Part shown: piece after piece, positions 1,770 through 20,914 of the stretch
Position numbering within the stretch: the stretch's first letter is position 1
Layout of the letters: each line of letters begins with the position of its first letter
Source of the DNA: Nitrosospira sp. Nsp2
GTDB taxonomy: Bacteria > Pseudomonadota > Gammaproteobacteria > Burkholderiales > Nitrosomonadaceae
Length of the DNA: 64,000 nucleotides
Direction of reading: 5' to 3'
NCBI RefSeq assembly: GCF_003050965.1
Contig: NZ_QAOU01000007.1
Span: 1 to 64,000, forward strand
Notes under the pieces: generated by a model
What the model saw: only the letters and a program-made list of their open reading frames with translations
The model's database searches: none
What the model was told of the DNA's origin: nothing
Position numbers and translations under genes: made by a program

Positions 1770-2642
1770 TCATCCACGGGCGCCATTGATATAAGCGGCA
1801 GTAAGTTCATGGGCGGGTGATTCAAATATCTGCCTACAATGTCCAAATTCTACCAGCTGTCCCGCATGGTCCCTGATCCAGAAGAATGCCGCATAGTTTG
1901 CGATACGGCGAGCCTGCGCCAGGTTATGCGTCACAATAACGATGGTGTAGCGCCCGCGTAAGCGCTCGATGAGATCTTCCACGACACCGGAGGCGATCGG
2001 GTCCAAGGCGCTGCATGGCTCATCCATAAGCAGAATCTGGGGATTTAATGCGAGTGCGCGCGCAATGCAAAGGCGTTGCTGCTGCCCACCTGACAGGCTG
2101 AGCGCGGAAGTATGCAGCCGGTCATGCACCTCTTCCCACAACCCGACATCCTGCAAGACGCGCTGTATGATGGCATCCGCTTCGCTGCGCCGGGTAATGC
2201 CATGTTCGCGCAAAGGCAACTCGATATTGCGATGGATTGAGAGCGGGAAAGGCGCGGGCTTCTGGAAGACCATGCCGATCTTCCGCCGTAGCACGCGCAA
2301 ATCGCACGCGGGATCATGGATATCGCAATTATCAATGCGAATACGGCCTGTGATCCGGCAACCGGGGATCAGATCGGTGAGCCGGTTGAGCGAGGACAGG
2401 AAACTGGTTTTCCCACACCCGGAAGGACCGATCAGAGCAGTGATGCATCCGCGATAGATATTCAGGGAGAGGCTTTCCAATGCGGTCCTCGCCCCATAGC
2501 TAAGAGAGAAGTTCTCCACCTCGATCACGGGCTGAGGTTCGCAACATGCCGGACCCAACTGCATGGGTCCTAGGGTATACGCGTCGTCCTGGCCGATGAA
2601 GTGGCCCGACGCCGTTGTGCTGGATCGGCGTTTTATGTTCAT
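1770..2642 (-). CDS. pstB: Phosphate ABC transporter ATP-binding protein PstB
   Basis: This is the cytoplasmic ATPase of the high-affinity phosphate importer PstSCAB. In the 290-aa protein Walker A is GPSGCGKT (72-79), the ABC signature is LSGGQQQ (183-189), and Walker B runs into MDEPCSALDP (206-215), the PstB form of the D-loop. The first 35 residues are an N-terminal extension compared with typical PstB of about 255-260 aa. The start overlaps the pstA stop by 4 nt (ATGA), so the two are translationally coupled. It is the last gene of the run, and the usual phoU does not follow. Confidence 0.95.
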   Translation of the reverse strand: MNIKRRSSTTASGHFIGQDDAYTLGPMQLGPACCEPQPVIEVENFSLSYGARTALESLSLNIYRGCITALIGPSGCGKTSFLSSLNRLTDLIPGCRITGRIRIDNCDIHDPACDLRVLRRKIGMVFQKPAPFPLSIHRNIELPLREHGITRRSEADAIIQRVLQDVGLWEEVHDRLHTSALSLSGGQQQRLCIARALALNPQILLMDEPCSALDPIASGVVEDLIERLRGRYTIVIVTHNLAQARRIANYAAFFWIRDHAGQLVEFGHCRQIFESPAHELTAAYINGARG

Positions 2643-3523
2643 TCCGGTGCTATCTTTCCTCGTTGCCAGCCTGCTGCCAGCTTCATCGCAAGGAGGTTGA
2701 TGAGCAGCAGCGCAGCGATCAGCACCAGTGCAGAGGCATGAGCGGGCGCGTCCCCGCCCGGAACATTCATTGATAAATCGAAGATATGCACTGCCAGCGT
2801 ACGCCCGGAATCGAGCAGGGACCCGGGCATGCGATCGACATATCCGCTGGTAAATAATAAAGCCGCGGTTTCTGCCATGGCGCGGCCGATCCCCAGGAGC
2901 AACCCGGCTACCAGCGCAGGAGCCGCGGCGGGTAGCAACACATGATACAAGGTTCCTGCGCGCGACATGCCCAACGCCACGGCTGATGAACGGTAGGTGT
3001 CCGGCACGGCACGCAAACCCGCCTCGGCGGTGCTGACAAGAATGGGCAGTAGCATGCAGGCCAGGGTCAGCCCTCCGGACAAAATGGAAAACCCGAGACC
3101 GAGATAGATGCTAAAAAAAATATTGCCGAACAGGCCAAAGACGATGGAGGGTACTGCGGCAAGAATCTGCAGACTGTAGCGCACTGTGTAGCCGAAGCGG
3201 CTGCGAGCCGATAGATATTCGGCAAGCATGACAGCCGCAGCCCAGCCTAGCGGTAGAGCCACAACCAAAGCGGTCAGGAGGACCAGGGTGGTGGAGACCA
3301 GGATGGAGTTGATGCCGCCGCCTCGCCCGGCGTTCTGCGGGGGGTCCATGATGAAGCTCCAGGAAAGATGTTCAATCCCACCGCGCACAAGATCGCCGAG
3401 TATCCACAGAAATACGCCGCTGACCAGAAAAGCGACAGCATATACGGTCCATCCCGCCATCCGGTCCCGCCGATCATTGCCGAGCGGCACAGCCGTTGCC
3501 CAGGCTGTTTCAGCTTGTCCCAT
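2639..3523 (-). CDS. pstA: Phosphate ABC transporter permease PstA
   Basis: An inner-membrane permease subunit of the Pst phosphate importer that pairs with PstC. The 294-aa protein has about six hydrophobic segments. The cytoplasmic coupling loop of binding-protein-dependent permeases is visible around the ALGMSRAGTLYHVLLPAA segment, followed by the GRAMAETAALLFTSG stretch typical of PstA. It overlaps the pstC end by 14 nt and the pstB start by 4 nt, so it sits in a tight operon. Confidence 0.93.
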   Translation of the reverse strand: MGQAETAWATAVPLGNDRRDRMAGWTVYAVAFLVSGVFLWILGDLVRGGIEHLSWSFIMDPPQNAGRGGGINSILVSTTLVLLTALVVALPLGWAAAVMLAEYLSARSRFGYTVRYSLQILAAVPSIVFGLFGNIFFSIYLGLGFSILSGGLTLACMLLPILVSTAEAGLRAVPDTYRSSAVALGMSRAGTLYHVLLPAAAPALVAGLLLGIGRAMAETAALLFTSGYVDRMPGSLLDSGRTLAVHIFDLSMNVPGGDAPAHASALVLIAALLLINLLAMKLAAGWQRGKIAPE

Positions 3524-4394
3524 GCCAGCTCCTTCCCAGCCGCGCTGCGGCGCTCCATAGCGTGATCACCAGCACCATGAGCGCCAAGCCCGACACGAAC
3601 AAAGCAGCTCTGTGGTCGCTTACGGCGTATGGCATTTCCAATGCAATATTAGCGGCGAGCGTTCGTACCGGGTCGTACACGCTGGACGCGTGCTGCACTA
3701 CATTCCCCGTTACCATCAACACAGCCATGGTTTCCCCGATGGCACGTCCGGCCGCAAGGATAACGCCCGCAGTGATGCCCATCCTCGCCGTTGGCAGAGC
3801 CACGCCGCGAATGATGCCCCAACGCGACATGCCCAGCGCGGCCGCGCCGCGCAGGTATTCATCGGGCACAGCCAGCAGCGCCGCGTGCGCCGTAAGCGCG
3901 ATGGTGGGTAGAATCATTAACGTCAGCACCAGGATCCCCGCCAGCAAACTGGCGCCCGGGGGGTGCAATTGATTAATCAGCGGCACCAGGGTGGTCAATC
4001 CCCAGAAGCCATAGACCACTGAGGGAACGCCCGCGAGCAATTCGACCAGACGCCGGTAAATGCCGGCGATCTGGGGCGGCGCGTAGTACGCGACAAATAA
4101 CGCAGAGGCTATGCCAAGTGGCGTCGCCAGCAATAACGCCCCTCCTGCGGCGTAAAGCGTGCCCGACAGCATAGGCGCGAGGTTATATGCCCTTTCCGTG
4201 GGCTGCCACGAGGGGTCAGTGACAAAGCGCACCGGCTGGATGTCCCTGAGAAGAGACGAGGACTCGGCCAGAAGGAAGAAAAGGATCAGCAGCACCAAGC
4301 CGGCCGCGATACCGGAGGCTATTCGCAGCAGCCAGAGAAACAGCGCGTCAATCGACGGTGACGGGAACGAAATATTGGGCTTCGACCAGGTCAT
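3510..4394 (-). CDS. pstC: Phosphate ABC transporter permease PstC
   Basis: The second permease subunit of the Pst importer. The 294-aa protein has a coupling loop in the ALGMSRWGIIRGVALP segment and the PstC-like GRAIGETMAVLMVTGN motif, with about six transmembrane segments. The ATG at 4394 lies 47 nt inside the end of pstS. It has a clear ribosome site (GGAGG 4-5 nt before the ATG) and no alternative ATG fits near the pstS stop, so the long overlap looks real. Confidence 0.93.
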   Translation of the reverse strand: MTWSKPNISFPSPSIDALFLWLLRIASGIAAGLVLLILFFLLAESSSLLRDIQPVRFVTDPSWQPTERAYNLAPMLSGTLYAAGGALLLATPLGIASALFVAYYAPPQIAGIYRRLVELLAGVPSVVYGFWGLTTLVPLINQLHPPGASLLAGILVLTLMILPTIALTAHAALLAVPDEYLRGAAALGMSRWGIIRGVALPTARMGITAGVILAAGRAIGETMAVLMVTGNVVQHASSVYDPVRTLAANIALEMPYAVSDHRAALFVSGLALMVLVITLWSAAARLGRSWHGTS

Positions 4395-5166
4395 GAACCT
4401 CCATGGAACGTGCGAAATCGATGAACTCCCGGGCCAGCCCTCCCGGCACAGCCCGTGTTACCAGATTCAGCGGCCGCGATAGCGGAAAAGTACCATTACG
4501 GACATTCGCCACCGTAGCAGCGACACCATCGAGCGGCAACAGCTTGATTGGCGTCCCATGCTTTGCTTCGTATGCGGCAGCGCCTATTGAAACGTAGCCG
4601 ATTGCATTCCGGTTGCCCGCAACAGTTTTTATCCCCTGGGAGTTGTCGCCGATGATTACATGCGGCTTAACTTCGCTGTTCTTTAGATTAAGATAGTTCA
4701 AAAACAGCTCAAGCGTGGAACGTCCCTCGGCTTTGTTGACCACGGTAATAGGCGAATTCACCCCTCCCACTTCCTTCCAGTTCACAATTTTTCCGGTATA
4801 AATATCGATAAGCTGGCGCCGATTTAACACTACGGCGGGGTTGCTGGCGTGCACAATAACTGCAACCCCATCCAACGCGATAGTGTGGGTGCGCAAACCC
4901 CGCTCTTCCGGCTTCAGGTCGCGCGATACCATGCCGATGTCGGCAGTCCCATTGCGGACATCGTTAATCCCCCGCGAAGAACCACCGGTCTGCACATCTA
5001 TTCGTGTTCCAGGATGCCGTGATTCGAACCGCCGAGCGATCTCCCCAGCTAAGGGCGCTATTGTGCTGGCACCTGTCAACACCAGTTTTTGTGCTGCAGT
5101 GTTCCCCACTGGGCTCCACCAAAGTCCCGCGGTAAACATTACTGCGCTCGCCATTGCAAGTTTCAT
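4348..5166 (-). CDS. pstS: Phosphate ABC transporter substrate-binding protein PstS
   Basis: A periplasmic phosphate-binding protein of the Pst system. The 272 aa include a signal peptide (about 1-24). Phosphate-contact segments typical of PstS-like proteins are visible: GASTIAPL, GGSSRGINDVRNGTADIGMVSR, and the AEGRSTLELF segment. This is the shorter PBP-like type rather than the 340-aa E. coli type. It begins only 12 nt after the flavin disulfide reductase gene, so it is probably cotranscribed with it. No Pho box was seen directly before it. Confidence 0.9.
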   Translation of the reverse strand: MKLAMASAVMFTAGLWWSPVGNTAAQKLVLTGASTIAPLAGEIARRFESRHPGTRIDVQTGGSSRGINDVRNGTADIGMVSRDLKPEERGLRTHTIALDGVAVIVHASNPAVVLNRRQLIDIYTGKIVNWKEVGGVNSPITVVNKAEGRSTLELFLNYLNLKNSEVKPHVIIGDNSQGIKTVAGNRNAIGYVSIGAAAYEAKHGTPIKLLPLDGVAATVANVRNGTFPLSRPLNLVTRAVPGGLAREFIDFARSMEVHDLVEAQYFVPVTVD

Positions 5167-5178
5167 GTCCCTTTCCCC

Positions 5179-7311
5179 CTATCCTCGCCGCCAGGCGTGG
5201 TATTTTTCCACCCAATCAAGCAACCGGCCGGGCACATGCTCGCGCCTCCACTGTCCCGCAGCATACTTGTTCGCCTCGGACCAGGTCGGGTATGTATGAA
5301 TCGTCCCAAGGATCTTGTTGAGGCCAAGGCCCTGTTTCATGGCGAGAACGAATTCCGCCAGCAGATCGCTGGCCCGTTCACCGACAATGGTGACCCCCAG
5401 AATGCGATCGCTGCCCGGCGGGGTAAGAACTTTCACAAACCCGTACGCCGCTTCATCCGTGATGGCGCGGTCGAGTTCTTTCAGGCTGTAGCGTGTTACC
5501 TCACATTTGATATCGCGTTTGCCGGCTTCCGCCTCAGATAATCCGACCCGCGCGAGCTCCGGGTGGGTAAATGTGGTCCATGGAATGACCGAGTAGTCCA
5601 CCTTGAAGCGTTTCACGCCGCCAAATAAAGCGTTTACAGACGCGTACCATCCCTGGTGCCCCGCAACGTGGGTAAACTGATAAGGCCCGGCCACATCGCC
5701 GCAGGCATAGATGTTGGGATAAAGCGTCTGCAACCACGCATCGGTCTCAACGTTACCCTTCTTTGAAACCGGAATTCCCAACTCTTCCAGACCGAACCCT
5801 TTGGTATAAGCCATTCTTCCTACTGCGCACAGCATGGCATCAAAAGGTAGCGTTTTTTCAGTTCCATCCTGCTGACGCACGATCAATTGCTGTTCCCCTG
5901 CTTCGTATTCGCAACGAATAGCATCAGTTTGGGTTAACAAACGGACACCGTCGGCGCGCAATGCCGCTTCAATCAGCGCAACAGCATCCGCGTCCTCTCG
6001 CGTCAGCAAATCGTGATTGGCTACCAGCATCACCTCACAATCCAGGAGAGCGAATGCCTGTGCCAATTCACAGCCAATAGGACCGCCGCCTAACACAATC
6101 AGCCGTTCGGGACGCTCTGTGAGAGACCAGATTGTGTCTGATGTATAATAGCGCGCGCGCTCCAAGCCCGGGATGGATGGGATGATGGGGCGGGAGCCGG
6201 TAGCCAGGACAATCGCGCGGGTTGTGATGGATCGACCGTTGACCTCTACCGTCCACGGAGAGGTAATGCGCGCCCTGCCGGCGATGACCTCCACCCCTAG
6301 TTCGGTGTAGCGCTGGGCGGAGTCGTGGGGTTCGACCGTTTGTATGACTCGGCGCACACGAGCCAATATGTCAGCGAAACTGTATTCGACGGTTGCGTGC
6401 GCGATGCCCAACTCGTTAGCGTGTCGGGCGTGCCGCAGGAACGCAGCAGACCGGATCAGTGCCTTGGAAGGGACACAACCAAAATTAAGACAATCTCCGC
6501 CCATCTTGTTTGCTTCAATAAGTGTCACCTTTGCGCGCGTAGCGGCTGCGACATAGGACGTTACCAGGCCGGCGGCCCCCGCGCCGATGACGACGAGATT
6601 ACGCTCGAATCGCGTTGGCTTGGCCCACTTTTTGGCTCCCATTCTGCTCATCCTCACACGTCCGATACCCCACCGCGCCAGCCAGGGAAATACGGCCAGC
6701 AACGCGAGGGAACCGATCAGCCCGGGAGAAAGGAGCCCCGAAAGACTGGTAAGCGAACCCAGCTGGGTTCCGGCATTAACATAAACCGCGGTGCCCGCCA
6801 TCATGCCCAACAGGCTGACCCAAAAGAAAGTGCGGGTTCGGATGGCCGTCAGTCCCATTAGCAGATTAATCATGAAGAAGGGAAAGATAGGCATCAGGCG
6901 CAACGTGAAGAGATAAAATGCGCCGTCCCGCTTGATGCCTTCGTCGATCACCGCCATGCGCCCACCGAAGCGCTTCTGGACCGCATCGCGAAACACGTAC
7001 CGGGCGACCCAGAACGCGAGCGTCGCCCCAATACTCGCGGAAATGACCGCTACCGGGATCCCGACCAACAACCCGAAAATCGCGCCGCCCGCCAGAGTCA
7101 TTACCGCAGCTCCAGGCAGGGAAAGGGCAGCGATAAGGATATAGACGATCGCGTAAAATCCTATTATGCGCAATGGCTGCGCCCGATAGGCCTGCTGCAG
7201 TTCATCGCGACTGTTCTTGAGGGTTTCGAGGGTAATGAAACGCTGGAGATCAAAAGCAAAAAACAATCCGCCCAGCAATACCAGCACTAAGAGCAACCAC
7301 CAGCGTTTCAT
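5179..7311 (-). CDS. VTT-domain membrane protein fused to FAD-dependent disulfide oxidoreductase
   Basis: A 710-aa fusion. Residues 1-215 are a TVP38/TMEM64 (VTT/DedA-like) membrane domain with several hydrophobic segments and the LSLPGAAVMTLAGGAIFG and RLMPIFPFFMINLLMGL family motifs. From about 238 onward it is a class I flavoprotein disulfide reductase of the mercuric/lipoamide reductase type. It has the FAD dinucleotide fold VIGAGAAG, redox cysteines C274 and C279 (GGDCLNFGCVPSK), the NAD(P)H site LGGGPIGCELA, a second FAD motif YACGDVAG, and a C-terminal HTYPTWSE in place of the usual active-site HxHPT. No N-terminal HMA domain and no C-terminal Cys pair of MerA are seen, so mercury reduction is unlikely. 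The substrate is unknown; the context suggests an arsenic, selenium or thiol substrate. Confidence 0.88.
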   Translation of the reverse strand: MKRWWLLLVLVLLGGLFFAFDLQRFITLETLKNSRDELQQAYRAQPLRIIGFYAIVYILIAALSLPGAAVMTLAGGAIFGLLVGIPVAVISASIGATLAFWVARYVFRDAVQKRFGGRMAVIDEGIKRDGAFYLFTLRLMPIFPFFMINLLMGLTAIRTRTFFWVSLLGMMAGTAVYVNAGTQLGSLTSLSGLLSPGLIGSLALLAVFPWLARWGIGRVRMSRMGAKKWAKPTRFERNLVVIGAGAAGLVTSYVAAATRAKVTLIEANKMGGDCLNFGCVPSKALIRSAAFLRHARHANELGIAHATVEYSFADILARVRRVIQTVEPHDSAQRYTELGVEVIAGRARITSPWTVEVNGRSITTRAIVLATGSRPIIPSIPGLERARYYTSDTIWSLTERPERLIVLGGGPIGCELAQAFALLDCEVMLVANHDLLTREDADAVALIEAALRADGVRLLTQTDAIRCEYEAGEQQLIVRQQDGTEKTLPFDAMLCAVGRMAYTKGFGLEELGIPVSKKGNVETDAWLQTLYPNIYACGDVAGPYQFTHVAGHQGWYASVNALFGGVKRFKVDYSVIPWTTFTHPELARVGLSEAEAGKRDIKCEVTRYSLKELDRAITDEAAYGFVKVLTPPGSDRILGVTIVGERASDLLAEFVLAMKQGLGLNKILGTIHTYPTWSEANKYAAGQWRREHVPGRLLDWVEKYHAWRRG

Positions 7312-7367
7312 CCCGAGCGCCTTTAAAGAACAATCTTCGCGGAGAAGGGGGTCTGACGGGCCTCGCC

Positions 7368-8333
7368 TTAATCAACATTCCGCTTCATTTCGCTGCACGA
7401 CGCGCCGTATTTAAAACAACTAAAGCATCGATGATGCTTCATGCTTACAGGCATTTGCAGGGCTTCGGTCAGCGTTTGCGCAAGAACGTAATCGGGGTCG
7501 TCATCCACTAGCGTACACGCGTAAACATACATGCTGCCGTCCCTTTTGACCACCATCTTGCTGAAGGAACACATGAACGACCGTCTTGTCTCTTCAGTAT
7601 GGAATTCGGTCATGCAGCGTCCTGTAATCTCCGGCACTGCCACCTGCGTCTCCGGGGGATGAAATTCCGGAAACTCGACCAGCGTCAACTGCTCGGGTAA
7701 CCCCGCGGAGCGAAAAACCTCTGCAAAGCCACCTGCCACCACATCCCCTGCCATGTCGGGCAGCTTTTGGTGCGCCACGGAAACATGAAAACCCATGCCG
7801 TGGAGCTCGCGCAAACCTTTCACCGCCTGGGCAAACATGCCTTCTCCACGGGCTGCGTCGTGGCGTGCGGGATCCGCATAGTCGAGGCTTACGCGGAAAT
7901 GCAGTTCGCCTGAATGGTTGCGTAACGGTTTTAAGTGCTTGAGGCGTTTTATCAATGGCTCAGTCGCGTTCGTCAGCACCAGGCAGGGGCGGTGCCGCAA
8001 TGCATAATCCAGGATGCGTATGATGTCCTTATTGACGAAAGGCTCCCCGCCGGTGAAGGAAAACTGCTTGACACCCAGGCTGAGCGCTTCATCGATATAG
8101 GGAGTCGCGTCCTCGAAACGCAACAGTTGCAAGCGCTCGTCGCCCGGCTTCGAGCCTTCCAGGCAGAAAGGGCAGGACAAGTTGCAGGCCGTGCCGGTGT
8201 GAAACCAGAGTTCGTCCAGCGCATGCGCTTGGATAACGCCACGCGGTTCGCCGCTCCGGGTTAGCAACCAGTCTTGGGAACGGGCAGATGCCGCCGCTTC
8301 ATGCCCTGGCCGCATGCCCATGCCTAGCAGCAT
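7368..8333 (-). CDS. Radical SAM protein with C-terminal Cys motif, next to arsM
   Basis: The 321-aa protein contains the SAM-cleaving [4Fe-4S] motif C50-x3-C54-x2-C57 (ACNLSCPFC) and the GGEP motif that binds SAM. A C-terminal SPASM/twitch-like cysteine set includes C303, C306 and C313 with upstream cysteines in MCSF and YAC. It does not look like the ArsS family (no LLCNQTCRHCH-type motif or DUF3641 tail seen). The start overlaps the arsM stop by 10 nt (ATGCTGCTAG), so the two are coupled. By context it may modify a methylated arsenic or selenium compound, or a small peptide or sugar; this is inference. An internal ATG at codon 5 or 7 is possible. Confidence 0.8.
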   Translation of the reverse strand: MLLGMGMRPGHEAAASARSQDWLLTRSGEPRGVIQAHALDELWFHTGTACNLSCPFCLEGSKPGDERLQLLRFEDATPYIDEALSLGVKQFSFTGGEPFVNKDIIRILDYALRHRPCLVLTNATEPLIKRLKHLKPLRNHSGELHFRVSLDYADPARHDAARGEGMFAQAVKGLRELHGMGFHVSVAHQKLPDMAGDVVAGGFAEVFRSAGLPEQLTLVEFPEFHPPETQVAVPEITGRCMTEFHTEETRRSFMCSFSKMVVKRDGSMYVYACTLVDDDPDYVLAQTLTEALQMPVSMKHHRCFSCFKYGASCSEMKRNVD

Positions 8334-9376
8334 CCACCGGCAAGCCCCGCCCCGGCACTATCGCCATCATCATATGGGAGCCCCACGCCGCAGCCGGGAA
8401 AAATACCGTAGTGCCGCTCGAAGCTGCCATAGAACTCGAAATGCGAGGCGAACCGGGTGTCGTGCAGCATGCGCCACGTGTTGCCGCAGACAGGAAAATG
8501 CTTTCCGGTTTCCATGCGGTGATGCTTGTCGAGCACGAACACATGGGGGTGATAAGGTAGGGTGCCGCGATAGACTACGGCTTGGCCATAGTCTTCGCAT
8601 GCCGGCTCCAGATTGTCCAGCTTGAATAAGCGGTAAGTCGCGGAGTAAAAACGCATGTTGCCAGTGCGGCCAGCCAGCTCTGCGTTGCGCAGGACAATCC
8701 TGCGATCCTCTATCAAACGCGGGTCGTCAAACCCGTGCTTCAGCGAAAGGTTGATGAAATCGTTCCAGTACAGCGCGCCGCTTAGACACTCGCCATATAG
8801 AACGGGATCGGCGGCGAGTGTTGCCGGCACCCGCCGGTCAGTATAAATATCGGAAAAGTAGAGTTCGCCGCCGGGCTTCAGCACCCGCCACGCCTCGCGC
8901 AGGACCGCTCCCTTGTCGGGTGCGAGGTTGAGCACGCAATTCGACACGATCACATCCACACTCGCATCAGGCAGTTTAAGCTCGGACAGGCGCTCGATGT
9001 AACCGTGCAGAAAACACACATTGCTGCTGCCATAACCGAACGCTTTACGGTGGTATTCCTCGTGGCGGCGCGCGACTGCCAATTGCTCTTCAGTCATATC
9101 AACCCCGATCACCTGCCCATTTTCTCCTACCAGTTTCGACAACACGTACACGTCGCGTCCGGCGCCGCACCCAAGATCGAGCACTGTCAGATCTTCAAGC
9201 AGTTCGGGCAGCACCAGCCCACACCCGTAGTAGCGCGCGAGCACCTCGCTGTGTACCTGGGCAAGTATCGGCTTCACATATTCGGGCAGGTCATCCCCGG
9301 TTGTGCAAGCATTGGTCTGAAGATCAAGCGACGAGCTTAAGGTTGCTCCGTAGTATTGCTGGACAATGTCATGCAT
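8324..9376 (-). CDS. arsM: Arsenite S-adenosylmethionine methyltransferase (ArsM-like)
   Basis: The predicted reaction is transfer of methyl groups from SAM to As(III)-thiolates. The 350-aa protein has SAM motif I DLGCGAGRD (67-75), and the three As(III)-binding cysteines of the ArsM family are apparently present: C24 (TNACTT), C147 (SNCVLNL) and C197 (GECLSGALY). It ends in GGCC, a cysteine tail often seen in this family. The region after 285 (CGNTW, FEFYGSF, GIFPGCG) is also conserved in ArsM proteins. The ribosome site is strong (AGGAGG). It sits between a glycosyltransferase and a radical SAM gene, which suggests steps beyond simple methylation. Confidence 0.85.
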   Translation of the reverse strand: MHDIVQQYYGATLSSSLDLQTNACTTGDDLPEYVKPILAQVHSEVLARYYGCGLVLPELLEDLTVLDLGCGAGRDVYVLSKLVGENGQVIGVDMTEEQLAVARRHEEYHRKAFGYGSSNVCFLHGYIERLSELKLPDASVDVIVSNCVLNLAPDKGAVLREAWRVLKPGGELYFSDIYTDRRVPATLAADPVLYGECLSGALYWNDFINLSLKHGFDDPRLIEDRRIVLRNAELAGRTGNMRFYSATYRLFKLDNLEPACEDYGQAVVYRGTLPYHPHVFVLDKHHRMETGKHFPVCGNTWRMLHDTRFASHFEFYGSFERHYGIFPGCGVGLPYDDGDSAGAGLAGGCC

Positions 9377-9393
9377 GAATCTGCCTCCTAAAA

Positions 9394-10080
9394 TCAGTTC
9401 GTTTTGGAGCGGTAGCGTGCGGCCAGCCTATCAGGCGAAGCGCCCCAAGCAAAAGCAAGCGCAAGATTGCGATTGATCCAGGTGCGGCGCCACCAGCCAT
9501 CGCGGTGCCAGCGGCGGGGGTCCACGAGGATCGCTTCTTGTAACGGAACAAAGCCCCCCAGCCGGCGCAGTCCGTTTATCAAGGCGACTTCCTCGAACAG
9601 GGGCCAGGGCGAATGACCGCCTGCCTCCCAATATGCATTCCGCCGCATGAATAAACCCTGATCGCCATAAGGAACCCCGAACCGGCAACGCATGGCAATA
9701 GCCGGTTCCAGCAGCAGGGCAGGCCAAGCGCGAGGAAGATCGAAACGAAAGCGAAAATAGCCGCCGACCGCGCCTTGGTCGAGTGCCAACCGCATCGCGC
9801 TCAACGGGTCGGGACATAACCGGGTGTCGGCATGCAGGAACCATAACGCGTCCCCTTTTGCTAGCGCGGCGCCCGCGCGTAGTTGTTGCCCACGGCAAGG
9901 TTCGGCCGCCAGCCACTGCGCTCCATATTGCTGGCACACTCTTCCGCATGCCGGATTTCCCGCGCCGTCGACGACGATGATTTCAGGTGATGAGTCTGGC
10001 AACTGCCGCAACTGGCCGAGCAGATCCGCCAGCTTGTCCTCATCTTGGTAGCAGGGAATAATGACGCTAAACCTGGACAT
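9394..10080 (-). CDS. Family 2 glycosyltransferase (TIGR04283-type, rSAM/selenodomain-associated transferase 2)
   Basis: A GT-A fold transferase of about 228 aa that begins MSRFSVIIPCYQDE and has the VVDGAGN and LHADTRL (DxD-like) segments of the TIGR04283-type proteins. This family recurs beside radical SAM and transferase-1 genes in arsenosugar/selenium-type clusters. I chose the ATG at 10080 because the family starts at (M)xxFSVIIP and a GGGAG ribosome site precedes it; an upstream start at 10110 is open. It overlaps the previous gene by 14 nt. The sugar donor and acceptor are unknown. Confidence 0.82.
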   Translation of the reverse strand: MSRFSVIIPCYQDEDKLADLLGQLRQLPDSSPEIIVVDGAGNPACGRVCQQYGAQWLAAEPCRGQQLRAGAALAKGDALWFLHADTRLCPDPLSAMRLALDQGAVGGYFRFRFDLPRAWPALLLEPAIAMRCRFGVPYGDQGLFMRRNAYWEAGGHSPWPLFEEVALINGLRRLGGFVPLQEAILVDPRRWHRDGWWRRTWINRNLALAFAWGASPDRLAARYRSKTN

Positions 10081-10762
10081 CGCCCGGTTCTCCCATGCTG
10101 ACAATATCACAAGTCAACTGATACAACGCACGTCGCGCCGGCCGATGGTCGGCTTTCAATGCGGTTAGTAGACGAAAGACATCCTGCTCTTCATCCACGT
10201 CGAAACTTTGCGTGAGCATGGCAAGCGACTGTCCAGCCCCGCGGCAGCAGCCGGCCAGTGCCGAGCCCAGATGCGACGTGCTCCACGGCAAGGCGTCCAG
10301 CATGGGCCAACGCAGGCGGCTCCCCATTAGCACCACACCGCCATCGACGGCCGGCTTCAGAACAGTATCATGTTTCAGCAACGCCGCGCGGGCTGCGGAG
10401 TAGTCGGTGGCCGCAAGCACGGGTGCGTCACTGCCTATATAAATCAGGTGTGCGATCCCCCGATCGCGCAAATTATGATCGACAGCGTTCAGCCGTTGTC
10501 CCAGATTGCCGTCCGTTTGAGGCACGATATGAATTTTTGGCTGAAGCTGGGGTAATAAGGAGGCAGCCCAGGCATAATCGGAGGGGTGCGCAGGCGCGAT
10601 GACCACCGGACCAGGCCAATCGCGGACGTCTTCCAATGCACAGGCGAGCAATGCCTCCGCAATACGCCTGGCCCCTTCCTGTCCCAGGCTCGCTGACAGC
10701 CGTTGCTTGCTGCTGCCGTATGCGGGACGCTTGCAAACAAGCACCAAAGTGGTTTCTGTCAT
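10067..10762 (-). CDS. DUF2064/TIGR04282-type transferase (rSAM/selenodomain-associated transferase 1)
   Basis: A 231-aa protein of the nucleotidyltransferase/GT-A class. It has VCKRPAYGSSKQRLSASLG near the N terminus (nucleotide-sugar binding style), GSDAPVL (DxD-like) and DGGVVLMG, as in the DUF2064 family. It is the first gene of the minus-strand run, followed by the GT2-type partner with which TIGR04282 proteins are commonly paired. The likely role is making or transferring an activated sugar; the exact substrate is not predictable from sequence. Confidence 0.82.
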   Translation of the reverse strand: MTETTLVLVCKRPAYGSSKQRLSASLGQEGARRIAEALLACALEDVRDWPGPVVIAPAHPSDYAWAASLLPQLQPKIHIVPQTDGNLGQRLNAVDHNLRDRGIAHLIYIGSDAPVLAATDYSAARAALLKHDTVLKPAVDGGVVLMGSRLRWPMLDALPWSTSHLGSALAGCCRGAGQSLAMLTQSFDVDEEQDVFRLLTALKADHRPARRALYQLTCDIVSMGEPGDVQV

Positions 10763-11191
10763 GCCAGCGTCCCATCCGCGAACCTGAGAATCGAACGACG
10801 GATAACACTGTTACTCATGAGTATCCCGCTGGAATGCCCGATGACAAATCGAACTTCGCATAGCTTTGAGCAATGACGCTACTTTAGAGCGGTAGAATCT
10901 TTACATCATAGCCCGTATCTCACCGTCTGCCGCCCAATTTGCGCTGAACGCCGGGGCGAATTAAATCGCCGCGACTTGCTCACGCAAATTCGCTTCCGTT
11001 CGGTTTTCGCCTTCCGGGCTTGGCGTACAAATCCATTCTCCTGCTGAATGACGGAACGAATCAAGCTCAAAGAAGGGAGAGCTACGGTGACGGGACTAGG
11101 GCGGATTATACGAAGGGCGGATTAGATATGACGACAGGCGAGTAAAATCAGGCTATTACAGGGGTACGAAGAGCTTTTCCGCAGAGACGAA
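10763..11191. other. Intergenic region, promoter side of the arsM-pst run
   Basis: About 430 bp lie between the first gene of the arsM-pst run (leftward) and the end of the amidotransferase gene. I see no credible gene, tRNA or Pho box. A short GGCGA/TCGCC inverted repeat occurs near 10958-10973. The leader must hold the promoter for the leftward run, but no convincing -35/-10 pair stood out. Confidence 0.5.
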
Positions 11192-13030
11192 TCACCTTTG
11201 CCTGTACCATTGCTCCAGCATCATCAAAACCCAGACCATAGTGCCATGGTAACCGGCGTGCTCATCCAGATGGTGCCCGAGCAGCTTGTCGATGAAGTCG
11301 GCCCGGATAATATTACGTGACTTGAGACTGCTCAGGCTATCCGAAGCCAAACCCTGCAAACCTCGATGCTGTTGCAGCCAGACGCCAAAAGGCAAGCCGA
11401 AGCCGTGCTTTTGCTTCGCGATAATATCGTCGGGCAGAAATCCCCGAAGCGCTTCCTTAAAAAAATAACGTAGCTTCGTGCCGTTGAGCTTCAGATGAGG
11501 CTCCAACCGCAGCGAGAAAGCCACGATCTCGTCGCTGATCAGGGGAAATGCGACCTCCATCGCCGCCAACTCGCAAGCCTTTGCCACTTTGGGCAGGTCG
11601 TTATCAGCGAGCGTGAACTTGCGATCAAAAGCAAGCATGCGATTAATTAGGCTGGTGGCGTTGTTCTCGTGATAGACGTCGTCAAGCAGGGCAGCCGGGT
11701 TGCTGGGGTTAACGGTTCCAAGGAATTCACGCGTAAAAACTTCCGCAGCCCCGTACCGCTCCAGCAGGTTATATGTTTCTGTTCGCGCCGGCATCGGGAT
11801 CGATGCTTGTTCAATATAGCTCCGCGCCTTTTGTACCAGCGGTAACGCAGCCCCACCCGGCAGGCCAAAAATGAGCGGCTCAAGGATACCCTTGCGCATC
11901 AGGGAGGGGGCCTTTTCATAGAGCGAAAACAGGTGTTGTTTGGCGTAACGGGAATTGCCGCCGAACAGTTCGTCCCCGCCGTCACCCCCCAACATTCTGG
12001 CCAAGCCGTCAGCTTTAGCCATTTGGCCACAATAGAAAGCCGGTATGGCCGACGCATTGCCAAAAGGTTGATCGAAAACGGCTGCGACTTGCGGGATCGT
12101 GTTCACGATGTCATCGGGCGTAACGTAATACTCGTGATGACGGGTGGAAAAATGTCTGGCCGCGATTCGCGCATACTCCATTTCGTCATAACCCGACGCG
12201 TCAAAACCGATGGAGTAGGTGTGGGCTGGGCCGCCCGACACCTCTCCCAATATTCCGGCAATGGTCGAGCTGTCTGTGCCGCCGCTAAGGAAGGCTCCAA
12301 CTTGCTGATCGCCTACCGCGTCGCGCACGCTGGAGCGCAGCACGTTTAGAAATTCCTGCTGGAGCTCCTGAAAAGGGCGCTTCTCGTTTTCCACGAACTG
12401 CATTCGCCAATATTTGCGAATCTCGACATGGCCCTTTCGATAAAAGAGGTATTCGCCGGGCAAGAGGCGTTTCTGGTCCTGGTAAATAGTATCCGGACCC
12501 GGCACCATGTGAAAGTACACATAGTTGTATACGCTTTGAGGGGCGATTTCGGATCGGGCTCGGGGATGTATATTAATTGCGTCCGCCGACGAGCCAAAGA
12601 CCAGCCCGCCCCCATGCTCCTGATAGGCTAGAGGGTTAATGCCCATCCGGTCTACCGCCAGAACGCCTTCCTGCGCGGCTTCATCCAGAATGCATAAGGA
12701 AAACACTCCTGTCAGACTCTCAAGGGCTTTTTCGCCTCGCTCACGCCACTCGCGCCCCAAGGTCCTTGCCACCCCTTCGGTGCGCGCAAGCTGGACTAAG
12801 CGCGGCTCGCGCAAGCGGGGCCGCCCCCATAACGCGACCAGAAGCCCATCCTGCTTATGAATATGTCTGCTATCGCTGCTTGCCGCAACTGCCACCGCGC
12901 TGCTTCCTTCAGCATCAGCCTCAACCTCGCTCGCATCAAACCGAGCCAGAGGGGCGGCCATTCGCTGCACGAGCTGCATATTTTCAATAACGGAGGCACT
13001 ATGGCCTATCCAACCGCACAATCCGCTCAA
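11192..13030 (-). CDS. Asparagine-synthase-like amidotransferase of the exosortase A cluster
   Basis: A class II glutamine amidotransferase joined to an asparagine-synthetase-like domain (612 aa). The N terminus reads MSGLCGWIGH. The PP-loop ATP site SGGTDSS is at 249-255, and GGDGGDELFGGN follows in the synthetase domain. Proteins of this kind sit in XrtA/PEP-CTERM loci and are thought to amidate a precursor of a surface polymer. The start is TTG (13030) with GGGAG 7 nt upstream. A second TTG three codons later (13021) would give MCGWIG, putting the nucleophilic Cys at position 2. It is the last gene of the cluster, 119 bp after the decarboxylase. Confidence 0.88.
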   Translation of the reverse strand: MSGLCGWIGHSASVIENMQLVQRMAAPLARFDASEVEADAEGSSAVAVAASSDSRHIHKQDGLLVALWGRPRLREPRLVQLARTEGVARTLGREWRERGEKALESLTGVFSLCILDEAAQEGVLAVDRMGINPLAYQEHGGGLVFGSSADAINIHPRARSEIAPQSVYNYVYFHMVPGPDTIYQDQKRLLPGEYLFYRKGHVEIRKYWRMQFVENEKRPFQELQQEFLNVLRSSVRDAVGDQQVGAFLSGGTDSSTIAGILGEVSGGPAHTYSIGFDASGYDEMEYARIAARHFSTRHHEYYVTPDDIVNTIPQVAAVFDQPFGNASAIPAFYCGQMAKADGLARMLGGDGGDELFGGNSRYAKQHLFSLYEKAPSLMRKGILEPLIFGLPGGAALPLVQKARSYIEQASIPMPARTETYNLLERYGAAEVFTREFLGTVNPSNPAALLDDVYHENNATSLINRMLAFDRKFTLADNDLPKVAKACELAAMEVAFPLISDEIVAFSLRLEPHLKLNGTKLRYFFKEALRGFLPDDIIAKQKHGFGLPFGVWLQQHRGLQGLASDSLSSLKSRNIIRADFIDKLLGHHLDEHAGYHGTMVWVLMMLEQWYRQR

Positions 13031-16022: not shown

Positions 16023-17375
16023 TTATTTTATCCCGTGACGATTCATCAGATCATAAATTGTGGGGCGGCTGACCCCGAGTAATTCAGCCGCCTTCACGAC
16101 ATTTCCGTTCACCCTGGCCAGCGCTTTCATCAGCGCATCGTACTCGGCCTTGTCGCGTATCTGACGAAGATTGATGGGTTCGGCCGGGCCCGAGGCCGCC
16201 TGCAGTCCAAGATCCTCGGAACTGATAATGGGCCCGTCCGCCATGATTACGGCGCGTTTGATGCAATTCTCCATCTCGCGGACATTGCCGGGCCAGGGAT
16301 GACTCTCGATGGCGGCAAGTGCATCCTGACTAAAGCTGAGCGAGGCCCGTTTTTCGTGCGCGCAGAATTTATTCTTGAAGTGATGTGCAAGCAGTGCGGC
16401 ATCACCCACCCGTTCTCTCAATGGCGGAATGGTGATCACGATTTCGCTGAGCCGATAATAGAGGTCTTCCCGAAAACGCCCTTCCCCGATCAGTTTCTTC
16501 AGATTCTGATGGGTGGCGCACACAATGCGGACATCGACCGGGATCTCCTTGCGGCCACCGACTCTTTCAATCACTCTTTCCTGCAAGAAACGGAGAAGTT
16601 TCGCCTGTAGCGCCATGGGTAAATCGCCGACCTCATCAAGAAAGAAAGTACCTTCATGGGCCAGTTCAATTTTTCCGGGCGTCTGCTTGACAGCCCCAGT
16701 ATAAGCTCCCTTTTCATAGCCGAACAGCTCACTTTCCAAAAGCGCTTCCGGAATGGCCGCGCAATTTATGGCCATGAAGCGTTTTTCCCTTCTGGCGCTG
16801 GACTGGTGGAGCGCCCTCGCCAGTATCTCCTTACCTGTTCCGCTCTCTCCCAACAGAATTACCGTCGCATCCGATGGCGCCACTCTTTCGACATTGCGGC
16901 ATACCTTCAAGAGCAACGGATCACGCGTTATTACGCCCGCGATGAGCGAATGCGTCTGGGTTTGAAGCAGCCTGCGGTTTTCCTGCTGCAATGCATACAA
17001 GTAATATGCTCTTTCAACCACTAGATGCAACATGTCGGGATCGAAGGGCTTCTGGTGAAAATCATAAGCTCCAGCGGCAATCGCCTTCAGTGCATTTCCA
17101 TGATCCTGATTGCCTGTAAGCACAATCACCTTGGTGTCCGGCGCAAGCTCAAGTATCTGCGCAAGAGTGGCAAGCCCTTCCGAAGCGCCGTCCGGATCCG
17201 GGGGTAGCCCCAGATCCATGGTAATAACCGCCGGCTCGTGCCTTCTCAGCAACGCAAGTGCGCTTTCACGATCCCCCGCCACTAATACCTCGTAGGCGTC
17301 AAAGCTCCAGCGCAGTTGTTTCTGCAGTCCGGGATCATCTTCGATTACCAGCAAACTCTTTTTATCCTGACTCAC
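16023..17375 (-). CDS. prsR: PEP-CTERM/XrtA sigma-54 response regulator PrsR
   Basis: A transcription activator (450 aa) that works with sigma-54 RNA polymerase at genes of the exosortase A system. The receiver domain has phosphorylation site D54 (TMDLGLP). The AAA+ domain has Walker A GESGTGKE (176-183) and the sigma-54 contact loop GAYTGA (223-228, the Y variant of GAFTGA). A Fis-type helix-turn-helix occupies the last 25 residues (ELLGVSRPTIYDLMNRHG). The start is GTG. It follows prsK by 40 nt, forming a kinase-regulator pair. Confidence 0.93.
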   Translation of the reverse strand: MSQDKKSLLVIEDDPGLQKQLRWSFDAYEVLVAGDRESALALLRRHEPAVITMDLGLPPDPDGASEGLATLAQILELAPDTKVIVLTGNQDHGNALKAIAAGAYDFHQKPFDPDMLHLVVERAYYLYALQQENRRLLQTQTHSLIAGVITRDPLLLKVCRNVERVAPSDATVILLGESGTGKEILARALHQSSARREKRFMAINCAAIPEALLESELFGYEKGAYTGAVKQTPGKIELAHEGTFFLDEVGDLPMALQAKLLRFLQERVIERVGGRKEIPVDVRIVCATHQNLKKLIGEGRFREDLYYRLSEIVITIPPLRERVGDAALLAHHFKNKFCAHEKRASLSFSQDALAAIESHPWPGNVREMENCIKRAVIMADGPIISSEDLGLQAASGPAEPINLRQIRDKAEYDALMKALARVNGNVVKAAELLGVSRPTIYDLMNRHGIK

Positions 17376-17415
17376 TTACATCCTCTTCCATTTGATCGAA
17401 TTTTCCAAGCGATCT

Positions 17416-19494
17416 CTACTTTACGGTTAACGCCTTAATAGCTTGAACGTTTTGACAGAGCGGCAGAAGGATACGGAAGACGGTGCCATCCGATTCACTA
17501 CTCATGACCTCCAGCTTGCCGCCGAGTTCAGACACATATTCCTTGCTCTCAAACACCCCGATACCCATGCCAGCAGATTTGGTAGATACAAAGGGTCTAA
17601 AAAGCTTTTCGCGGATGAACTCTTCACTCATGCCGTGCCCCGTGTCCTTTATTTCAACCATCGCGAAATCATGTTCCCTCTGCAACCGAATCCGAACCAG
17701 ACCATCACGTGGCGTCGCTTCGATTGCATTTTGGATGAGATGCCCTACAACCCTTTCCAGTCGTGACGAGTTCGCGTAAACCGTGAGGCTGGAATCCTGT
17801 ACTTCCAGAACAGGCTTGGGTTCGGCAATCGATTTGCTCGTGACCGCTTCTTGTAACAGGTGAGCAATGGAAAGGGGAACGGGCGTCTCCGCCGAATCGC
17901 TACCACTTAGTTTTTCCAGAAGCCGTTTCATTTTTTGAACAGACAGGTAGACCGTTTCAACCATATCTTGCTGGAACGCCGGATTTTGTTTATGTTTCTC
18001 TGCGTTGGAAAGCAAAAGGGATAACTGTGAAACCAGGTTTTTCAAATCGTGGACCACAAAGGTCGACATGCGATTGAATGACTCAAACTGGCGCGCCACC
18101 ATGAGCGCGTTGGCAGCCTCGTGCTGCGCCAGGTAACTCGCCGCCTGATTCCCCGCGACCTTGAGCAGATCACTAACTTCCCAGTTCAGCTTTACTTTAC
18201 TTCTCGGTAGTGCCAGCACCACAAAACCGAATAATTTTCGGTGCTGGATGAGGGGTACCACCAGCCATGCCTTGGGGATGGTTTGCAGCCATTGAGGCAA
18301 AGTAATTTCCGAGTATTTTTCCGGGTTTGTCCGATATTCCTGTAAGTCGATCACCCATTCCCTGTGTTCAAGGAACTGGCAGAAAGAGCTTGTAACCGGT
18401 TCAATCCCGCTGGCGAAGGGCATATTCCAATGAGCGACGTGTTCGAAGTTTCCGGACTCCCGGGATATCCAAAGACTGCCGCCCGGGCTCTCCACCAACT
18501 GCGCTAAAGCCTGAATCACGCGCTCACCCAATCCATGCCCGCCCTCGGAGAGCGTACGCGTAAAGTGAAGCCACTCTTCGCGATAGTCATAGTTGTAGCT
18601 AAAAAAATGCTTGCTGATAAAGACTCTTAGCCAGGAACGCAACGTGCCCGAGAACAACACAGCCATGAGCAGGACTACAGCGCCAAACAGGAAACTCACC
18701 TGCATGACGGTGCCCCAACTGCCGCCGAAAAAACGGAGATAGTAGCCAGCACCGGCCATTGCCAGCAAATACGCGGCAGCACCAAATAATGCCGCAGAAT
18801 AAAAGAGAATGCGACGCGATACTGTAATACCAACGGACCATTGGGGGTTTCGCGCGGCCGACACGGCGACAAGCGGAACAATAAGCGCGTTAACAATCCC
18901 GCGAGCCGCCCAGATCTCGGGGTTTACATGCCTGAGCAGCAACGCATCGCTATAGAGGTAAAAATCGTATGCAAAAACCCCGCCGATGCCGAGGCAAGCA
19001 AATTTTATTCCCCAACGCTGCTTAACCGGTGTGTTCCTGTACAGTTGCTCAACCAGTATCATTCCCAGTAGCGCCATTGCGACACTCGCAATGATACTGT
19101 AGGTGAAATCGGCTTGAACTCCGGAAAAGGTAAAGTCCCCATGGCCATACAAAGCGGCAATAACGCATCCGACATAGAGTGACACGATGATCGACATGGC
19201 AGGGTTCACCCTGCCGGTGAAAAACGCGTCCCGATTTAGCCCCAGCAGGGTGATGAGAAACGCCGACCAGCCCGCATTCCGGGTGATTTCCAGGAGGTCC
19301 GTGAGGAGCGAAAGGGGGCGGTCCTGGGATGCCTGGTAGGCCAGCGCCGCCGCCCAAAGCACGGACAAAAGGCAGGCAATAGGCAGTACTATCCCCTGCA
19401 AACGGCCCCGCCAGCTCGTCAGCAGGAGCACAGCCAAAACCAGATACGCTACCGCCGCAAGTGTATAGCTGACCGCCGCGATGCTCGTTACCAT
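17416..19494 (-). CDS. prsK: PEP-CTERM/XrtA system histidine kinase PrsK
   Basis: A membrane sensor kinase of about 692 aa. The N-terminal third holds roughly 8-10 hydrophobic segments (7TM-like sensor), followed by a GAF-like domain and the kinase core. The phosphoacceptor box is VVHDLKNLVSQL, the N box HLIQNAIEATP, and the G boxes DTGHGMS and GMGIGVFES. It is the cognate partner of PrsR. I chose the ATG at 19494 (22 nt after the glycosyltransferase stop); the TTG at 19542 would overlap that gene and lacks support. The sensed signal is unknown. Confidence 0.92.
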   Translation of the reverse strand: MVTSIAAVSYTLAAVAYLVLAVLLLTSWRGRLQGIVLPIACLLSVLWAAALAYQASQDRPLSLLTDLLEITRNAGWSAFLITLLGLNRDAFFTGRVNPAMSIIVSLYVGCVIAALYGHGDFTFSGVQADFTYSIIASVAMALLGMILVEQLYRNTPVKQRWGIKFACLGIGGVFAYDFYLYSDALLLRHVNPEIWAARGIVNALIVPLVAVSAARNPQWSVGITVSRRILFYSAALFGAAAYLLAMAGAGYYLRFFGGSWGTVMQVSFLFGAVVLLMAVLFSGTLRSWLRVFISKHFFSYNYDYREEWLHFTRTLSEGGHGLGERVIQALAQLVESPGGSLWISRESGNFEHVAHWNMPFASGIEPVTSSFCQFLEHREWVIDLQEYRTNPEKYSEITLPQWLQTIPKAWLVVPLIQHRKLFGFVVLALPRSKVKLNWEVSDLLKVAGNQAASYLAQHEAANALMVARQFESFNRMSTFVVHDLKNLVSQLSLLLSNAEKHKQNPAFQQDMVETVYLSVQKMKRLLEKLSGSDSAETPVPLSIAHLLQEAVTSKSIAEPKPVLEVQDSSLTVYANSSRLERVVGHLIQNAIEATPRDGLVRIRLQREHDFAMVEIKDTGHGMSEEFIREKLFRPFVSTKSAGMGIGVFESKEYVSELGGKLEVMSSESDGTVFRILLPLCQNVQAIKALTVK

Positions 19495-19516
19495 TTTGTG
19501 CGGCTGCGCCTGGACA

Positions 19517-20914
19517 TCATCTCCCGCCCTTGCCCAGCACAACTACTTCAATAGTATCAATCAGGATGATGACATCAAGGAAAAGACTATGGTTTTTTAC
19601 ATAATATAAATCGTACTGAAGCTTTTCGATAGCATCTTCCACCGACGCGCCATATCGATAGCGCACCTGCGCCCATCCAGTTATTCCGGGCTTGATGCTG
19701 TGCCTAACATTGTAGAATGGCACTTCTCCGCAGAGTTGGTTTACAAAATAAGGCCTTTCCGGACGTGGACCGACAAAGCTCATATCCCCATTCAGAACAT
19801 TGAATATTTGTGGAAGCTCATCGATTCTCAACTTCCGGATGATTCTGCCCACGCGCGTTATCCGAGGATCGTCCGTCGTCGCCCACTGCGGCTTCCCGCC
19901 TTTCTCGGCATCGTTCCGCATACTCCGGAACTTGAGAACCATAAACGTTTTCCCACCCTTTCCCACCCTTTCCTGCCGGTAAAAAATTGGAGGGCCATCT
20001 TCTAAAAGGATACAAATGGCAGTGATGAGCATGATGGGCAGCGTTGCCGCGAGCAGAATACCGCTCGCGACCAGATCGAAAACACGCTTGATACCTGAGC
20101 GAAGCAGGCTTTGATCGAAACCGCCGCCAAAAACAAGCCAACTGGGGTAAAGCGTATTCACCCGAATCTGGCCTCGCTCCCGCTCAAAAAAAGCGGCTGA
20201 GTCGGTAACCTTGATCCCATTCAGCTTGCATTCAAGCAGATCCTGAATGGGAAAACATCCGCCGCGCCGCTCCTGAATGGCAATGATAATTTCTTGAGCT
20301 CTGTATCGATTGGCCAGAGACATTAAGGAACCCGTCTTCGGCAAAACAGAAGAAGCCGGGATATGCAGCTCTTCGTCCGGCACCGATACAAAACCGATGA
20401 TCTTGAGGCCTCGCCGCGCGGAATCATTTTTTGCCTGCTCGACAAATTCCTTGGCCTTACCCCCCACGCCAAGCACGATGGCCTGTGACTCCATGATTCC
20501 CAAGCTCGACCATTTCAGGAATGCCGCACGGGTCAGGAGAATTCCAGCTAAAGCAAGAAGCATGACCAAGCCGAGAATACCACGGCCGAGATAGAGATCA
20601 GGCAGCAGATAAAAGATCAGGGTGATGATTCCGAATCCCAGCATCATCGATGGCATCAACCGGAATAAGATTTCTTTTAGGTCCAGCCGGGAATCGAGTT
20701 GATACAATCCCATCGCCGCCATGCTTAGAATCATGACGGAGGTAAACGTGAAGGCTTCCGGGAACAAAGAGGAGAACGAGAAAGGAAACGGCTCGATTTG
20801 ATCCAAAAAACGAAGACTGGCTCCAAAATAAACCATGAATATCAGCACCAAAATTTCAGTGCTGATGAGCAGGATCGCCGTTCTTGAGATGTAATGATTA
20901 TATATGCGAAGCAA
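19517..20914 (-). CDS. XrtA/PEP-CTERM polyprenyl-phosphate glycosyltransferase (TIGR03013-type)
   Basis: A membrane-bound initiating sugar-1-phosphate transferase that loads the first sugar onto undecaprenyl phosphate for exopolysaccharide synthesis. It has about four N-terminal transmembrane segments, a nucleotide-binding-like middle ([11 protein letters not shown]), and a bacterial sugar transferase domain from about residue 275 ([39 protein letters not shown]). The family usually begins (M)xRIFNHYIS, which fits a TTG at 20914 behind GGGAT; a GTG at 20953 would add 13 residues. It is the first gene of the leftward cluster. Confidence 0.9.

Follow-up and report, generated by a model that had tools for sequence, protein, structure and literature searches.

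The stretch of DNA analysed here, 64,000 nucleotides (nt) from Nitrosospira sp. Nsp2 and referred to as the window, comes from a 3.46 Mb genome and starts with the first base of its contig C7. Between positions 1770 and 10762 it carries nine genes that place enzymes of the organoarsenical kind directly beside a Pst-type importer. An earlier note on this DNA had described a run on one strand with several overlaps and no gap longer than 56 nt. The coordinates bore this out, and all nine open reading frames (ORFs) were found on the minus strand at the positions which that note had given. Genomes, contigs and loci are denoted by G, C and L numbers, respectively.

Gene content of the run

The first gene in the order of transcription, GT4282 (10067..10762), encodes a DUF2064/TIGR04282-like nucleotidyl- or glycosyltransferase, which exceeded the PF09837 cut-off and matched TIGR04282 over its full length with 114.9 bits (cut-off 134). 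It is followed by GT4283 (9394..10110), encoding a TIGR04283 family glycosyltransferase (198.2 bits, cut-off 182), arsM (8324..9376) for an ArsM-type arsenite methyltransferase, rSAM (7368..8333) for a radical S-adenosylmethionine (SAM) protein (PF04055), and the VTT-reductase gene (5179..7311), in which a VTT membrane domain is fused to a flavin disulfide reductase (PF09335, PF07992, PF02852). These five genes are called the cassette in the following. The importer genes pstS (4348..5166), pstC (3510..4394), pstA (2639..3523) and pstB (1770..2642) complete the run. The permeases PstC (TIGR02138, 242.7 bits, cut-off 196.5) and PstA (TIGR00974, 222.5 bits, cut-off 193.5) scored above their family cut-offs; PstS (TIGR02136, 177.1 bits, cut-off 206.6) and, narrowly, the ATPase PstB (TIGR00972, 333.3 bits, cut-off 343.2) scored below them. 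PstS exceeded the cut-off of PF12849. The PstB match starts at residue 40, behind an N-terminal extension that lies outside the TIGR00972 model.

From first to last gene, the junctions are an overlap of 44 nt (GT4282/GT4283), a gap of 17 nt (GT4283/arsM), an overlap of 10 nt (arsM/rSAM), gaps of 56 nt (rSAM/VTT-reductase) and 12 nt (VTT-reductase/pstS), and overlaps of 47 nt (pstS/pstC), 14 nt (pstC/pstA) and 4 nt (pstA/pstB).

Conservation of the gene order in relatives

The earlier note had made a linked system depend on a neighbourhood conserved in relatives, and such conservation was found. Our sample of relatives comprised 61 genomes, the own genome and 60 others. An rSAM orthologue was present in 16 of them, and the neighbourhoods of all 15 rSAM-bearing relatives were inspected. 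All nine genes occur in the same order in 11 of these 15, and within the genus sample the order is complete in 12 out of 14 rSAM genomes, own genome included. In G002 eight genes are present and the contig end falls inside pstA. In G011 five genes are followed by a contig end 447 nt beyond the VTT-reductase gene; since pstS was found neither in these 447 nt nor in the rest of the assembly, G011 may lack pst. Two genomes of another genus of the family carry five (G023) and four (G032) cassette genes with no pst in that stretch. Both encode PstS of the same subfamily elsewhere, far from the cassette, and in G032 a VTT-reductase gene lies beside that pst.

A scan of named species genomes yielded 322 stretches encoding an rSAM relative at E 1e-3, of which the best 80, many of them short, were analysed. 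Among these 80, 69 contained an arsM match and 17 part or all of this type of pst, and the closest rSAM, 82% identical, belongs to Nitrosospira sp. Nsp14. The unit was found in the ammonia oxidisers Nitrosospira, Nitrosovibrio and Nitrosomonas. At L073, L078 and L085 pst directly follows rSAM, and the VTT-reductase gene is relocated or was not seen. L084 (Nitrosomonas supralitoralis APG5) has a cassette copy at 7561-10957 and a second about 6 kb on, at 16927-20095, in which a VTT-reductase is joined by short matches to a transferase and a radical SAM protein.

A radical SAM family in place of ArsS

The rSAM protein takes the place of ArsS. Its score of 47 bits on the ArsS model TIGR04167 lies below the cut-off of 300, which rules out that it is ArsS itself, and no other protein of the own genome exceeded this cut-off. 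The CX3CX2C motif (C50, C54, C57; 8163..8186) is invariant in 41 of 41 sequences, and so are six cysteines beyond it. The C-terminal arrangement C303-x2-C306-x6-C313 (7395..7427) is likewise invariant in 41 of 41. This tail is similar to the end of ArsS (C-Y-x-C ... S-C). With an hhalign probability of 18.9% the match is weak, and its score of 22.9 narrowly exceeds those of all 200 column shuffles (highest 20.9). Comparison of the rSAM and ArsS profiles gave an alignment confined to the radical SAM core (146 columns). The structure model (predicted local distance difference test, pLDDT, 88.5) has BlsE and SkfB as nearest solved folds.

Of the 61 genomes, 14 encode an ArsS above the cut-off, and none of these 14 is among the 16 with rSAM. 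The same exclusion was seen in a class-wide sample of 369 genomes, in which ArsS, called at E 1e-60, occurs in 182 (179 over the cut-off) and rSAM in 8, with no overlap (0/8; p 0.004, genomes being treated as independent and shared ancestry ignored). Seven of the eight carriers encode an rSAM with at least 49% identity. The eighth, G641, has a relative of 39-42% identity (L259, 8359-9258) with neither arsM nor transferases beside it, possibly a member of another branch.

Outside the family, the order GT4282, GT4283, arsM, rSAM, VTT-reductase recurs in G576. Similar neighbours are seen in distant members: L255 has these five genes and L254 arsM, rSAM and VTT-reductase, L256 combines a DUF547-like gene, a transferase, arsM and rSAM, and L257 has both transferases and separate VTT and reductase genes. 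None of these companions, the VTT-reductase included, was seen at L259.

The ArsM-type methyltransferase and the VTT-reductase

The methyltransferase matched the solved arsenite methyltransferases 5evj and 4kw7 with 361.6 and 288 bits, respectively. C24, C52, C147 and C197 align with cysteines of 4kw7, and an alignment of 19 homologues keeps these four and a C-terminal cysteine pair in every sequence. The protein thus has the As(III)-site cysteines expected of an ArsM from an arsenosugar cluster. On NF040538, the ArsM model of the arsinothricin pathway, it reached only 133 bits (cut-off 500), and several of the ArsM-like models it matched are selenoprotein families.

Homologues of the VTT-reductase, which carries the pair C274-x4-C279, were found near ArsS in 12 of 14 ArsS loci. 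An assignment as mercuric reductase MerA was rejected: MerA requires a C-terminal cysteine pair, the last cysteine of the VTT-reductase is residue 603 of 710, and the TIGR02053 score was 369.5 bits against a cut-off of 454.5. At L185 (5325-9559) and L257 (5683-7844), the VTT-reductase is split into separate TVP38/VTT and mercuric-reductase-like genes that adjoin arsenosugar-type genes.

A PstS subfamily linked to arsenic genes

The Pst of the run is not the housekeeping importer. A second PstA/PstC pair is encoded at C2:759407-761265 of the own genome, and a pair of this kind was recorded for most family genomes. The PstS of the run belongs to a subfamily set apart by an identity gap (at least 53% versus at most 38%). 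It was found in 16 of the 61 genomes, namely in 15 of the 16 rSAM genomes and in G018 of the same genus, which has ArsS. In G018 the order is ArsS, VTT-reductase, DUF547-like gene, transferases, one more gene, arsM and pstSCAB. In the PstS tree its PstS groups with that of G419 from another family (support 95/86), apart from the rSAM-linked proteins; hence, the link to pst arose more than once. DUF547 and DUF3047 are provisional labels for two such genes, for which NCBIfam gave no family.

Linkage to arsenic genes recurs in other lineages. G138 has ArsS, VTT-reductase, transferases, arsM and pstSCAB in a single run. In G419, G199, G327 and G680, arsM lies immediately ahead of pst, and in G422 about 3 kb off. 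The stretch examined of G199 (L169) has arsM together with DUF547-like and VTT-reductase genes, and ArsS was not seen in it. ArsR is encoded immediately before pstS at six loci (L185, L186, L245, L246, L248 and L249). L185 and L186 are cyanobacterial plasmids, and at L185 arsS and arsM lie some 7-10 kb from pst. The seven ArsR proteins read near pst all have G-C-C close to the C-terminus, with a short tail behind it. Of the 369 class genomes, 14 encode PstS of this subfamily; 11 of them have ArsS, 2 have rSAM and 1 has neither (p 0.001 for the association with ArsS or rSAM, shared ancestry ignored).

A plasmid of Gloeothece verrucosa PCC 7822 carries pstSCAB of this type (L187, 14001-17481), and none of the genes up to 14 kb away is annotated as an arsenic gene. 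In a search for arsenite efflux that covered ACR3 and not ArsB, ArsJ or ArsP, ACR3 was found in none of 20 family genomes with rSAM or ArsS and in three (G013, G017 and G029) of 17 with neither, numbers too small to carry a conclusion.

Two molecular signs in PstS and PstB

PstS carries a changed anion loop. Residues K145-A-E-G-R-S-T151 (4714..4734) align to REDGSGT of 4gd5 and depart from the pattern R-x-x-G-S-G-T of solved PstS proteins. In PstS proteins such as that of E. coli, this loop binds the anion. The sequence KAEGRST is invariant in 17 of 17 sequences, and KAxG[RH]ST was found in all 37 distinct rows of the subfamily; a row of 38% identity keeps part of it and rows of 34% or less do not. 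The predicted PstS structure is poor (pLDDT 51.7).

The second sign is a Cys-Cys-Glu-Pro sequence (residues 33-36; 2535..2546) in the PstB extension, conserved as CC.P 39 residues ahead of Walker A. With seven loci that duplicate other genomes left out, CC.P occurs in 24 of 25 PstB proteins tied to arsM and in 0 of 14 that are not (p 1e-9, shared ancestry ignored). The former comprise 18 of 19 rSAM-linked proteins (L085 has C-S) and 6 of 6 that are linked to arsM and not to rSAM; the latter are the 14 PstB proteins with a PstS of the same subfamily not beside arsM. CC.P was also present in both unlinked PstB proteins of rSAM genomes and in one other (G253), and absent from 2 of 2 PstB proteins of the housekeeping type. 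A PstB tree computed by a quick method unites the Cys-pair proteins in a single clade with 22 rows (Shimodaira-Hasegawa-like approximate likelihood ratio test, SH-aLRT, 89); the pair therefore most likely arose once.

Upstream element and neighbouring genes

A promoter-like element with TATGAT at 10902..10907 on the minus strand lies upstream of the run. CTAT-x-ATGTA was found in 13 of 14 aligned regions upstream of the first gene, and no comparable match was found before pstS in the 13 loci scanned. The element rests on this alignment, as a scan with the sigma-70 consensus did not pick it out. It is the top match in the window of a position weight matrix built from 13 sites, partly by construction, since the window's own site was included (L043 was left out).

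Downstream of the run, a copper nitrite reductase (TIGR02376, 479 bits) is encoded on the same strand (193-1293), as nirK likewise is at L034, L040 and L044. Upstream lies a 612-aa ORF (11192-13030, minus strand), asparagine-synthase-like by eye, with homologues upstream of the run at varying distance in 10 of 15 relative loci.

Interpretation and alternative explanations

We interpret the run as one unit, in which a cassette for the biosynthesis of an organoarsenical, probably of the arsenosugar type, is combined with its own specialised Pst-type oxyanion importer; we give this a probability of roughly 0.65. Support comes from the gene arrangement and its conservation, the co-occurrence of the genes, the replacement of ArsS, and the conservation of the loop in PstS and of the Cys pair in PstB. 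These observations suggest that one unit serves both the uptake of arsenic and its conversion. The earlier note had proposed a linked system that imports phosphate and converts the accompanying arsenic. Its view of organoarsenical-type enzymes with pst as part of the same system gained support, since the same Pst subfamily adjoins arsM in ArsS-type clusters, adjoins ArsR, and co-occurs with rSAM in two genomes where they are unlinked; its statement on what is imported and converted is now one of two live readings.

Several observations weigh against a single unit of this kind. The TIGR04282 score of GT4282 and the scores of ArsM on the NCBIfam ArsM models fall below the cut-offs. Most Nitrosomonas-type loci show the cassette with no pst of this type in the stretch examined (17 out of 80 have it). 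For 8 of the 14 class genomes that encode this PstS (G023 and seven others), neither arsM nor ArsR was seen beside pst in the stretch read; in one of these eight the contig starts 59 nt before pstS. The CC.P counts are not independent, because the pair most likely arose once. Finally, four relatives (L035, L036, L039 and L041) have 168-195 nt upstream of pstS, which leaves room for a second promoter.

The proposed chemical steps, substrate and product are modelled on the reported ArsM/ArsS pathway. The second Pst with its changed-loop PstS would take up phosphate and/or arsenate. Arsenate would then be reduced to arsenite, perhaps by the ArsC-type protein encoded elsewhere, at C2:683994 (112 bits, cut-off 106), and the membrane-tethered flavin disulfide reductase may keep thiols and arsenic in the reduced state. 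ArsM would methylate As(III), and rSAM would attach a carbon group from SAM to the arsenic, most likely the 5'-deoxyadenosyl group as reported for ArsS. By sugar or nucleotide transfer, the two transferases would lead to a glycosylated end product. The PstB Cys pair is a possible binding site for As(III), through which import may be adjusted to the pathway. The importer would thus be dedicated and possibly arsenic-gated. In a more far-reaching version, which we put forward as a speculation with the odds against it, Cys-Cys-x-Pro of PstB is an arsenic sensor, through which As(III) formed from imported arsenate gates uptake to the capacity of the pathway, and rSAM is a second, ArsS-replacing family that forms C-As bonds.

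The strongest alternative, quite possible and not far short of an even chance, is that Pst does not feed the pathway at all, being a phosphate importer tuned to reject arsenate, which sustains phosphate supply under arsenate competition. A changed PstS loop could equally sharpen selectivity, and there are precedents. In the available text on Halomonas GFAJ-1, its two Pst systems, of which one belongs to an arsenic island, are reported to remain specific for phosphate, and arsenic resistance was unchanged when either pst operon was deleted (PMC5930303); a 500-850-fold discrimination by a pst1-like protein is mentioned in the part seen of PMC3834237. On the other hand, Agrobacterium Pst1 is described as arsenate-binding in passages of PMC7533571 and PMC3954881. 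The loop is unlike that of solved phosphate binders, and both the tie to arsM and organoarsenical clusters, not to efflux alone, and the near restriction of the PstB Cys pair to arsM-tied systems fit a role in the pathway better.

We consider it rather unlikely that the cassette makes a product other than an arsenosugar, such as another C-As compound or a selenium or tellurium compound. This would agree with the naming of the ArsM-like and TIGR04282/TIGR04283 proteins by context only, with the matches of the methyltransferase to selenoprotein families, and with an rSAM that is not ArsS and whose closest solved structures are those of enzymes for a nucleoside sugar acid or a peptide. These two, BlsE (7vob) and SkfB (6efn), share only 19% and 18% identity with rSAM; the shared fold shows no function, and to our knowledge neither enzyme has a link to arsenic. 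Arsenic as the substrate is favoured by the invariant cysteines that ArsM shares with the solved enzyme, by partner genes that are those of ArsS clusters, and by the linkage of the same type of pst to ArsR in other genomes.

That two unrelated operons merely stayed adjacent in Nitrosospira by chance or descent is very improbable: some family members have the cassette with no adjoining pst, and some PstS-bearing genomes have no arsenic gene in sight of pst, but recurrence of the link with ArsS-type clusters in other lineages and co-occurrence of rSAM and PstS even when unlinked (G023, G032) rule it out as the main explanation, and at L073, L078 and L085 pst stays next to rSAM in spite of the changed position or apparent loss of the VTT-reductase gene.

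If the run is a unit of synthesis and import, it ties oxyanion uptake to the formation of an organoarsenical in ammonia oxidisers, and the rSAM family that stands in for ArsS may be a further C-As bond-making enzyme. Whether an arsenic-linked Pst carries arsenate or protects phosphate supply becomes testable, with defined targets in the loop of PstS and the Cys pair of PstB.

Comparison with known systems

Pst operons beside arsenite-oxidase (aio) genes are already known. A literature search that left most subscription papers outside brought up neither a Pst tied to arsenosugar-type genes nor this rSAM family nor the PstB Cys pair. Nitrosospira briensis and Nitrosomonas eutropha are named in a figure legend on AS3MT homologues (PMC5398495, seen in part), and ArsR-controlled pst genes of Agrobacterium are described in the accessible part of PMC7965956.

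According to the available portions of PMC3834237 and PMC3954881, the Pst1 of aio islands is, like the Pst of the run, a second pst operon located with arsenic genes. Unlike these islands, the run has no aio genes, and in the pst genes of the arsenite oxidisers NT-25 and NT-26 neither the KAxG[RH]ST loop nor the PstB Cys pair was found. With 66 identical of 307 columns, the PstS of the run is not of the NT-25/NT-26 type. The arsenic island of Halomonas GFAJ-1 likewise has pst within an arsenic gene cluster; there, as far as the excerpt of PMC5930303 goes, pst sits with acr3, arsH and gapdh, and the comparison with the run is one of gene content.

Radical SAM enzymes for arsenosugar and arsinothricin have been described (PMC8552651 and PMC12159101, both seen in part). 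As in the arsinothricin cluster arsQML, the ArsM of the run adjoins a radical SAM gene. Unlike that cluster, the run has no arsQ, and its methyltransferase falls far below the cut-off of that pathway's ArsM model. ArsL is described in the accessible text of PMC8552651 as a protein of 428 aa with only three conserved cysteines; the rSAM of the run has 321 aa and nine.

Another counterpart is the arsenosugar cluster with ArsM and ArsS, which Xue in 2019 and Cheng in 2021, as cited in PMC8552651 and PMC12159101, reportedly characterized. The run shares with it ArsM, the TIGR04283 and TIGR04282-like transferases, the VTT-reductase homologue and one radical SAM gene. It differs in having another radical SAM family for ArsS, no DUF547-like gene, and a special Pst attached.

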